Origin: Verrucomicrobiota bacterium
GTDB lineage: Bacteria; Verrucomicrobiota; Verrucomicrobiia; Limisphaerales; VHDF01
NCBI GenBank assembly: GCA_016871495.1
Contig: VHDF01000006.1
Coordinates: 1-64,000, forward strand
Direction: 5' to 3'
DNA length: 64,000 nucleotides
Every line of letters starts with the position of its first letter. Within the stretch, counting starts at the first letter, position 1. Positions 15,605 to 48,228 of this stretch are shown in pieces. The notes under the pieces were generated by a model. The model did not search any database. It was given only the letters and a program-made list of their open reading frames with translations, and was not told the DNA's origin. The position numbers and the translations under genes are program-made.

Positions 15605-16060
15605 GGCGCGATGCTTTGCCACGAATCCCACGGAGTGTCACGCGGGAAAGTTCGCGCACCGCATTTCCCCGTGTATCCCAATGTTGTTGGTAGGGCGGGC
15701 CTGTCCCAGCCCGCCGCCCACGGGATGCAAAACATCATGCTCCGGCGGCGCGCCGGGACGGACGCGCCCTACCTGCATCACCGGCAACATCGGGATGCAC
15801 CGCGCATTTCCGGCGCACCCGCAAGTGGCCGGGGCGCGCCGTGCGCGGCGCTTCCGCCCGCGCCCATCGGCCGCGGCGATCTCCTCCCGCACCAGGGCCC
15901 GCCCTGGGTGAAGGCGTGAGCGGTTCCGCGGGCTCCAATCGACGAATCCGAACGGAGTGTGGTATTCATTGGGAGTTTCATTTCAACGATGATGCGCTGA
16001 GGGAATTGGAATCGGCGCTGGACGACTTGCTTGTCTTGAGCCGCTCCGTAACATCGACGC
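15605..16060. other. Intergenic region with a palindromic repeat, no gene
   Basis: This 456-base gap separates the divergent exported cyclophilin and antitoxin-like gene. It holds one double palindrome (15690-15772). Several short frames of about 100 codons run through it on both strands, but they encode arginine-, alanine- and proline-rich sequence derived from the repeat and are not believable genes. Confidence 0.6.
15690..15772. repeat. GTAGG-type double palindrome, copy 2
   Basis: Begins GTAGGGCGGGCCTGTCCC and ends GGGACGGACGCGCCCTAC, imperfect reverse complements. Each half is also locally self-complementary (for example GGCGGGCC...GGCCCGCC-type pairing around the loop). Same family as 11689-11760 and 54501-54576. 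Confidence 0.75.
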
Positions 16061-16249: not shown

Positions 16250-16543
16250 TCTTCGCCCCGCAAGCCGAGCGCGACCTCAGGTCCGTTGTGTTCTAGGTCG
16301 CGCGGCGTAGTAGCGCCGAAATTGCGGCCCGGTTCGGCAACAGTCTCATTGAACGGGCTTTGACTCTGGCCTCGCTTTCTAATGCGCGGACGCGTGGTGC
16401 CCGAGCTTTGCGACCCGATGGTGCGCGAAATCATTTAGCGCGATTATCCCATCGTTTTCTGAATTCACGGAGACATCGTGCAAGTGATCCGGTTTTGGCA
16501 CGAGGCACGTTTGACCCCTGTTATCGACTCGGATGCATTTTGA
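16231..16543 (+). pseudogene. Broken RelE/ParE-family toxin
   Basis: From ATG 16231 the frame reads MDRFKVVFAPQAERDLRSVV, a classic ParE/RelE start, then hits a stop at about 16294. The homology continues (ARRSSAEIAARFGNSLIERA), shifts frame near 16390 to VVPELCDPMVREII, and resumes after two more stops as IHGDIVQVIRFWHEAR, the conserved toxin C-terminus. Three stops and one frameshift make it inactive. It overlaps the intact antitoxin-like gene, so this is a decayed toxin-antitoxin module. Confidence 0.85.
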
Positions 16544-16555
16544 CTGGGCCATGCG

Positions 16556-16630
16556 GATGGCGATGACGACCAGGAGTTCGATGAGGGTGAATGCGATTTT
16601 GGAAATTGGATTTGCGATTCTGGATTTCAT
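16556..16630 (-). pseudogene. Remnant of a type IV pilin-like (prepilin) gene start
   Basis: On the minus strand from ATG 16630 the frame reads MKSRIANPISKIAFTLIELL followed by VVIAI, the N-terminal cleavage and methylation motif of type IV pilin-like proteins. After these 25 codons the similarity stops and the frame runs into the toxin pseudogene, so only the 5' end of the gene survives. Such proteins are very numerous in Verrucomicrobiota. Confidence 0.8.
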
Positions 16631-16706: not shown

Positions 16707-17177
16707 TTGCGAGACGTGCCGCGCCGCGAACTCCGTCACCCTCAACAAGTTGAAGGCTGGCTTACGGATCTGAATCGCCGGATTACGCAGCCAGCGAAGA
16801 TGACTTTGATTGGCTCTGGCGCATTGCTTTGGCACGCGTTCCAACTCGGGGTCACGGAACCTTTGCCTGAAAACAGCATGGATGTGGACCCGATCACGGA
16901 CTCGGATGAAGTCGCCCGGTTCTGTTATGAGGCGCTGATTGGAAGTGAGTTCGAACGCATCCACGGCTGGCACGTCAATTTGATGCCGGCATTGGTGATG
17001 CGCGAGTTTCCGTGCGATTGGGAGCGCCGTGCGCGGGTCAAGAATTACGGCAACCTTCTCGTCGTGGCCCCCTCGGTTGAGGACTTGCTCATCCCAAAGG
17101 CAAAACGAAATGAACCACGGGACCGTATTCACGCCGAATGGGCGAAGCAGCATCTCCTGGCTCGCGGACTGAAATGA
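16707..17177 (+). CDS. Nucleotidyltransferase-like protein (DUF6036-type)
   Basis: A 156-residue protein with MTLIGSGALLWHAF, the glycine-serine turn of nucleotidyltransferase-fold proteins, followed by SMDVDPITD, which supplies two acidic residues in the usual D-x-D position. The tail VEDLLIPKAKRNEPRDRIH matches the lysine-rich end of the same group. The start is a TTG; GTG at 16716 is equally possible. It overlaps the next gene by four bases (ATGA). Members include antitoxin- and toxin-like nucleotidyltransferases; no enzyme activity can be claimed. Confidence 0.7.
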   Translation: MRDVPRRELRHPQQVEGWLTDLNRRITQPAKMTLIGSGALLWHAFQLGVTEPLPENSMDVDPITDSDEVARFCYEALIGSEFERIHGWHVNLMPALVMREFPCDWERRARVKNYGNLLVVAPSVEDLLIPKAKRNEPRDRIHAEWAKQHLLARGLK

Positions 17178-17482
17178 AAATTGAACCGCAAGAAACGCGT
17201 CGAGTCTGGGGCGACTACGTGAACTGGGATGACGTCGCCCGGTTTGAATACGGACGACGCATGTGGCGCATGCCGGAAATGCGCGCTCGGCTGCTCGCGC
17301 ACTGGACCGATGACCGGCATCCTTATCGTGAACGATTCGCCGCGCATCGGGCGATGGTCGAACGCGCGCTTTCGTCCGACGCCGACCCGGTCCGTCTCGA
17401 CGAGGAGTTGAGGAAATACGCTACCAGTCTCCGCTGCGTGGCGCGCGAAATTCCTCCTGTGTTTGGAAGCTTCTTTTCCTGA
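17174..17482 (+). CDS. Hypothetical protein coupled to the nucleotidyltransferase-like gene
   Basis: A 102-residue protein starting at ATG 17174, overlapping the upstream stop as ATGA. It is rich in tryptophan, arginine and glutamate (WGDYVNWDDVARFEYGRRMW) and looks like a soluble helical protein. No family is recognised. The strict overlap implies it works with the upstream protein, as in two-gene toxin-antitoxin or defence pairs, but this is inferred from position only. Confidence 0.65.
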   Translation: MKIEPQETRRVWGDYVNWDDVARFEYGRRMWRMPEMRARLLAHWTDDRHPYRERFAAHRAMVERALSSDADPVRLDEELRKYATSLRCVAREIPPVFGSFFS

Positions 17483-17629
17483 CCTGTCTCCCGCGTCGGA
17501 AGCGGGGTCCACCGTTCCTGGTCGGGCATCGGCCGAACAATTGGAGTCAATGGGGTCAAGTCTTTATTTATTACAAAACAGCTTGCGAACTCCCTGCGGG
17601 GCACGAGAAGGAGAGTCGCCCATCGATTC

Positions 17630-17905
17630 TTATGCTTTTCTCATGGTTCTTCCTTCATCCAGTTTGCGCAGGCATTGCGCGGAGTAGCCCGCCGCACCCA
17701 TGTTCAACCCCCGGGCAATCCAGACCGTCGTTATCGTCGTTTCCCCGCGCCGGCGGCGGGCGATCTTCATCTTCTCCGGGTCGCCCTTGCGCCGGGCTTT
17801 CCGTCGCGCCGCAGTCCATCCGCGTTGCTTGAGTTCCGCCGCCAGCAACCGCTCGGCCCGCACTGTCTCGACCTCCTGCGGCTCCTCGCCCATGAAGAAT
17901 CGGCC
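17630..17905 (-). pseudogene. C-terminal remnant of a REP-associated tyrosine transposase (RAYT, IS200-like)
   Basis: The minus-strand frame carries RAERLLAAELKQRGW, RRKGDPEKMKIARRRRGETT and TTVWIARGLNMGAAGYSAQC, closely resembling the C-terminal tail of REP-associated tyrosine transposases in Verrucomicrobiota and Planctomycetes. The catalytic HUH histidines and tyrosine of the N-terminal domain are absent: upstream of residue GRFFMGEE the frame becomes repeat-derived sequence. The element is therefore dead. The gap from 17483 to 17629 holds no gene; GGGGTCAAGTCTTTATTTAT at about 17552 may be the element end. Confidence 0.7.
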
Positions 17906-17933
17906 CTGGAAACCTGAAACCCGCACACCCCGG

Positions 17934-18139
17934 GTAGGGGCACCTGCGAAGCTGGCATCCCTCTGGGATGCAAATGCTTGGGCGATCCGGTGGACCGGTG
18001 GTATCGTCGCTGCGCTCCTCAACCACCGGCTAAGAGCTGGCAAGCCTCCGGCTTGCGACTGAGCCGCTTCACGTCACTCTGGTCTCACTTCCCTTCTGCA
18101 TCCATCCCGCATCTCCCGCTTGGGATCAGGACGTCTGAG
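17934..18139 (+). repeat. Multi-hairpin dispersed repeat, copy 1
   Basis: About 200 bases matching 48029-48228 in inverted orientation. Both copies contain the hairpins CCGGTGGT...ACCACCGG and GCAAGCCTCCGGCTTGC and both contain an unlikely frame with the peptide WTGGIVAALLNHRL, which is a by-product of the repeat, not a gene. It abuts the transposase remnant. The 229 bases from here to pyruvate kinase hold nothing recognisable beyond a probable promoter. Confidence 0.8.
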
Positions 18140-48028: not shown

Positions 48029-48228
48029 CTCAGATATCCTGACCACAAGCGGAAGATGCGGGACGGATGCATAAGGGATGTGAGACCAGAGTGAAGTGAA
48101 GCAGCTCGGTCGCAAGCCGGAGGCTTGCCAGCTTTTAGCCGGTGGTTGAGGAGCGCAGCGACGATACCACCGGTCCACCGGGTCGCCCCAGCATGTGCAT
48201 CCCGGAGGAATGGCAGCGTCGCAGGTAT
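48029..48228 (-). repeat. Multi-hairpin dispersed repeat, copy 2
   Basis: Inverted copy of 17934-18139, sharing GGTGGTATCGTCGCTGCGCT and the hairpin GCAAGCC/GGCTTGC. Both copies contain the same spurious peptide frame WTGGIVAALLNHRL, which is produced by the repeat. It lies directly before copy 1 of the structured 270-base repeat. Confidence 0.8.

Follow-up and report, generated by a model that had tools for sequence, protein, structure and literature searches.

The window, a 64,000-nucleotide stretch of a verrucomicrobial contig, carried on its minus strand an open frame (18073-17633, stop at 17630-17632) that included the RRKGDPEKMKIARRRRGETT peptide. Homology to transposases began at about 17893, not at 17905, and a repeat element, R1, took over from about 17886 outward. 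A second palindromic element, R2, lay at lower coordinates (Table 1). Between R2 and the remnant, a DUF6036 nucleotidyltransferase-like protein was encoded at 16707-17177 on the plus strand, and a small ORF at 17138-17482 overlapped its end; the two could be a toxin-antitoxin-like pair. A short minus-strand ORF at 16379-16630 had a type IV prepilin-like signal, AFTLIELLVVIAI, and part of its DNA (16556-16594) recurred on contigs C81, C1 and C127. Next to R2 stood another repeat, at about 15808-15915, which was 83-88% identical to stretches on C1, C25 and C6 (near 85 kb); the transposase tail remnants of C1 and C25 adjoined copies of it. An Rfam scan of the window returned a tRNA and nothing more. 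A scan with pyruvate kinase gave Verrucomicrobiota (Limisphaerales/Pedosphaera) as the nearest named relatives, at no more than 75% identity.

Table 1. Positions within the window of the transposase remnant, its surviving end and the two palindromic elements.
Feature	Position	Strand	Evidence
Left 9-bp target-site duplication of R2, CGCATTTCC	15660-15668	.	Perfect match to right
R2, "GTAGG" palindrome, 134-bp TIR element	15669-15802	+	TIRs, duplication, copies
Right 9-bp target-site duplication of R2, CGCATTTCC	15803-15811	.	Perfect match to left
Right TIR surviving from the transposase unit, inward sequence GGGGTCAAGTCT	17552-17563	-	Genome copy excess, C81 left ends, relatives
Remnant of the C-terminal tail domain, TIRYT-type Y1 tyrosine transposase	17654-17893	-	Relative-only profiles, alignment, order-wide search
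R1, truncated copy of a palindrome-rich TIR element	about 17886-18138	+	Related copies, border alignment, TIR pairs

Profiles were built from relatives only, with the window remnant left out. The tail profile matched the window with an E-value of 1.1e-25 (positions 12-91 of 95) and the full-length profile with 1.3e-20 (positions 228-308 of 312); both matched at the remnant and nowhere else in the window. When the 91-residue fragment was used as a one-sequence query, matches were found in 29 of 58 genomes of the same order (best E 1.2e-16), the strongest usually falling within open frames 310-360 residues long. The 12 full-length relatives that were aligned (Verrucomicrobiota, same order) were mostly 306-347 aa long; all 12 matched Y1_Tnp, and their alignment displayed an HxH and Y-x3-NP core (HFH, YVHLNP). 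Aligned together, the relatives and the fragment had 11 invariant columns, all in the tail, and the remnant retained every one of them. By itself the remnant had no match in Pfam or NCBIfam. The catalytic HUH/Tyr core was absent from the whole window in the profile search, the remnant included, and no Y1_Tnp match was found on the window's contig. The remnant is the tail of a Y1/HUH tyrosine transposase of about 310 residues whose core is gone. A sequence-only reading had described a dead REP-associated tyrosine transposase (RAYT) reduced to its C-terminal tail. The alignment and the relative-only profiles (E about 1e-20 to 1e-25) bore out the tail of a RAYT-superfamily enzyme and, as tail positions alone were matched, the loss of the catalytic N-terminal half; with the catalytic part missing, the gene is dead.

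NCBIfam REP_Tyr_transpos matched one of the full-length relatives with an E-value of 3e-15, at 56 bits and so below the cut-off of 80, and a PDB sequence search gave 4er8, the E. coli TnpA-REP structure, as the sole match (E 0.81). No Bac_DnaA_C, HTH_23 or HTH_28 match was obtained in the tail with Pfam, DUF6471 being the only hit (up to 3e-4). AlphaFold2 modelled the tail of the relative L040 as five confident helices, but the whole model was poor (pLDDT 65) and the fold search recovered the Y1 core alone (IS608, ISDra2, 4er8), so the helix-turn-helix (HTH) character of the tail is putative; that Pfam did not confirm it counts against the TIRYT assignment.

No intact tailed copy was found in the genome assembly (201 contigs, 97% complete), although one may lie in a gap; the complete copy that the earlier reading had proposed to look for was thus not recovered, every tailed copy in the assembly being broken. 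Five Y1_Tnp matches were detected in the genome. The C176 gene was intact, 159 aa long and of IS200 type, with no tail. Two matches on C81 were tailless, stop-bearing N-terminal portions of tailed transposases, one covering profile positions 1-131 in pieces and the other 14-129; those at C82:22651 and C93:17251 were other remnants or other types. On C82, an N-terminal scrap (L134) adjoined a GGGGTCAAGTCT motif. Further tail pieces, each interrupted by one stop, were located at C1:24804-24914 (59% identity) and C25:13788-13877.

The window and C1 remnants shared 158 bp at 80% identity, reaching past the stop, and were separated by a one-base frameshift. Over 32 codons, 8, 4 and 6 differences fell at codon positions 1, 2 and 3, respectively, which together with the frameshift indicated that no purifying selection had acted between the two. 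These data bear on the rival view that the tail persists as a domesticated stand-alone protein, putatively DNA-binding, in an 87-aa frame from the ATG at 17893. The frame is indeed open and all invariant residues are kept, showing that decay is not extreme, a point that counts against a dead remnant; the confident helices of the L040 tail also fit a domesticated domain. However, there was no third-position excess against the C1 remnant, the non-coding 3' flank was similarly identical to C1, the other tails in the genome were partial and each carried a stop, and the start codon sits at the repeat junction. We regard domestication as very improbable. The remnant is a routine genome fossil, the decayed and ordinary representative of a kind already known.

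On the minus strand, 3' of the remnant's stop, the sequence read GTAATAAATAAAGACTTGACCCC, that is, GGGGTCAAGTCT read inward at the position of the right TIR. The GGGGTCAAGTCT 12-mer had 8 copies in the genome, compared with 0.33 expected under a second-order model and 0 for a reversed-pattern control. Both C81 remnants had it on their left side (GGGGTCAAGTCTACAATATTGACA). On C54 it formed a solo right end similar to that of the window over about 35 bases, the resemblance extending to about 17586, and the copy on C120 looks like chance. In the relatives, the best inverted pair was searched for between the 250 bp upstream and the 250 bp downstream of each gene, with 30 shuffles each. Among 13 full-length genes, 8 were flanked by inverted repeats of GGGGTCAG type that outscored each of the 30 shuffles, and a ninth, L046, tied the maximum. 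Their arms carried GTCAG/GTCGG, mostly as GGGGTCAG (e.g., AGGGGTCAGTTCTTGAT in L047 and AAAGGGGTCAGTTCT in L065), and lay 52-137 bp before and 17-45 bp after the gene. The right TIR in the window was farther from the stop, at about 67-78 bp versus 17-45 bp in the relatives, and this counts against assigning the remnant to a TIRtron. A REP-like GTRG hairpin or a window-type palindrome was found beside none of the 12 full-length relatives in flanks of up to 300 bp, 4 of the 24 flanks being short (22 bp for L041 and 29 bp for L065 downstream; 98 bp for L044 and 53 bp for L049 upstream).

The remnant itself retained a single terminal repeat, which had the local GGGGTCAAGTCT sequence. Comparison of flanks with the palindromes, also proposed earlier and made here on the relatives, went against a connection, the relatives' ends being of GGGGTCA type with no GTAGG-like palindrome in the available flanks (up to 300 bp). 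Judged from their sequences, the relatives of the remnant are TIR-associated (TIRYT, subclass 2.1-like) and not strictly REP-associated. Of the label "REP-associated", the superfamily stood; strict association with REPs did not, as TIRs of GGGGTCAG type bound the relatives and no REP-like palindrome was seen in their available flanks.

At 17881-17893, R1 sequence gave way abruptly to the transposase tail. Three things are missing at this single sharp junction: the first 230 or so codons of the gene, the left terminus of the transposase unit and the left-hand portion of R1. The window copy kept its right TIR at 18123-18138, and its left end was missing at the remnant junction; R1 reaches a full length of 628 bp or more. 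About 30 related places were found in the genome, 16 of them at 87-93% identity over 127-162 bp, and most copies ended on the right at TCAGACATCCTGACC (reversed). Five full units of 254-876 bp had the TCAGACATCCTGACC TIR at both ends, and identical 3-bp flanks were seen at 4 of 6 sites (the five full units and a 38-bp fused pair of ends). This pair, L097 at C53:16392-16429, is a palindrome of two fused Transposase_29 IS ends with gcc on either side. The window held a second R1 copy from 48030 to about 48226, with the TIR TCAGATATCCTGACC at 48030-48044. The TIR of R1, ending ..CCT, recurred near many contig ends at a distance of 100-250 bp, a pattern that a high-copy IS collapsed in the assembly would give, and the right end of that IS encoded the end of a PF21804 Transposase_29 protein. 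This high-copy IS at contig ends, with its TCAGACATCCTGACCT termini, is an autonomous relative of R1 sharing its TIRs.

An alternative owner of the R1 palindromes is the intact 159-aa IS200-like transposase of contig 176, whose 5' flank holds a 75%-identical block. The R1-like block at C176:2871-2975 does adjoin the gene (2475-2813), and this gene (L001) exceeded the NCBIfam IS200 cut-off. However, blocks of 74-75% identity on C11, C63 and C77 adjoin other sequences, and window-type R1 copies carry their own TIRs and 3-bp duplications; we consider ownership by the C176 gene unlikely. The sequence around the block on C77 (L036) resembled a restriction-specificity gene at its 3' end, and the transposase was seemingly missing there. 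R1 appears instead to be a passenger of the IS with the same TIRs, with a DDE-type signature.

R2 had the termini CCGTGTATCCCAATGTTG...CAACATCGGGATGCACCG, with ends of CGGTGCATCCCGATGTTG type, and its core GTAG..CTAC (15690-15772) consisted of two inverted GTAG-tagged hairpins. Nine contigs, 849 kb in total, were analyzed for copies. They contained 26 GTAG cores, every one inside a TIR element, 23 with both TIRs and 3 with one, and none was solitary. The flanks of the 23 copies matched at 9/9 bases in 19 cases, at 8/9 in three and at 2/9 in one; shuffled pairings matched at 2.55 bases on average and at 6 at most. Scaling from 849 kb gave about 155 copies per genome; the exact 15-mer TIR had 152 genome matches. 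The listed copies were 98-99% identical, indicating a recent burst. On C18 (L024), R2 had inserted into a copy of R1, and CTGCGACGC flanked the insertion on either side. No autonomous partner, i.e., a transposase with R2 TIRs, was found in the nine contigs. The raw count of GTAGG in the window (39, versus 26.7 expected) was mostly uninformative. Nine-base target duplications are typical of DDE transposition; single-strand HUH transposition is not known to make them. With its TIRs and 9-bp duplications of the target, R2 has the features of a MITE mobilized by a DDE-type transposase. We consider it somewhat probable that a REPIN-like doublet of GTAG hairpins was captured in the 134-bp TIR element and amplified by DDE transposition to about 155 near-identical copies with 9-bp duplications, in which case a GTAG hairpin signature alone would not be proof of RAYT mobilization.

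The sequence-only reading had placed two palindromes of the GTAGG family near the remnant and suggested the dead enzyme as their past mover, in the manner of RAYTs with REPs. R2 is one such palindrome; the other, taken to be the block at 17886-18138, belongs to a different family, with TIRs of its own that also occur in an unrelated IS. Kinship with REP movers is visible in the common superfamily, to which the sub-threshold REP_Tyr_transpos match of the relative points (3e-15; 56 bits, cut-off 80), and in the two inverted hairpins of R2, which resemble a REP doublet. However, 26 of 26 GTAG cores in 849 kb sat in a TIR element and 22 of 23 had duplications matching at 8-9 of 9 bases; 0 of 12 full-length relatives had a REP-like palindrome in the available flanks; the enzyme's own ends were of GGGGTCA type; and the R2 burst was recent (98-99% identity), yet every tailed transposase copy was broken. 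The proposed role as a GTAGG mover is unsupported and, in our judgment, extremely improbable.

The feature is very probably the decayed right end of a TIRtron, in which a single TIRYT gene (like subclass 2.1 of Quentin, its product about 310 aa long and ending in a helical tail) lay between GGGGTCA-type TIRs, the nearby palindromes being passengers of other systems. By analogy with its family, the enzyme would have used its HUH/Tyr core to cleave and rejoin single strands at the GGGGTCAAGTCT ends. The simplest history would be a deletion that joined R1 to the transposase gene, for which no intact intermediate was seen; it would have removed R1's left portion together with two thirds of the gene from its start. 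R1 would have traveled as a passenger of the IS whose right end codes for the end of a Transposase_29 protein, and R2 as a passenger of a DDE transposase making 9-bp duplications. Judging by target duplications and terminal repeats, the enzyme, R1 and R2 fall into three separate transposition systems, and the enzyme's ends differ in sequence from the palindromes. A RAYT-like fragment near GTAG palindromes invites a false link to a REP mover, which this analysis prevents. Ends of GGGGTCAG type are now given for tailed tyrosine transposases of an uncultured verrucomicrobial order and can be tested biochemically.

Among known systems, a TIRtron consists of a TIRYT gene between TIRs with the motif GGGGWSAS (Di Nocera 2013, PMC3733652), and TIRYTs were placed mainly in TnpA-Y1 subclass 2.1, whose members have a long C-terminal extension and whose genes have no adjacent REPs (Quentin 2018, PMC6006769). 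The full-length relatives resembled them in the Y1/HUH core, the long C-terminal extension and the length of about 310 aa, as well as in GGGGWSAS-motif inverted repeats (GGGGTCAG) and the lack of a REP adjoining the gene. In contrast, the window retained just the tail and one end, the local end GGGGTCAA was one base off the motif, and the tail was not recognized as HTH by Pfam. RAYT/TnpA-REP genes (REPtrons) are flanked by inverted GTRG-tagged REPs (Nunvar 2010, PMC2817692); they have the Y1 transposase superfamily in common with the relatives, whereas the latter had no GTRG-tagged REP flanks within the available flanks of up to 300 bp. The IS200/IS605 TnpA enzymes (the C176 gene; folds of PDB 2vhg and 2xma) gave the best core-fold match of a full-length relative but are about 150 aa long and without a C-terminal tail. 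R1 and R2 resembled DDE-mobilized MITEs in having TIRs, duplications of fixed length, high copy number and no coding capacity, although the core of R2 is a REPIN-like doublet of GTAG hairpins.
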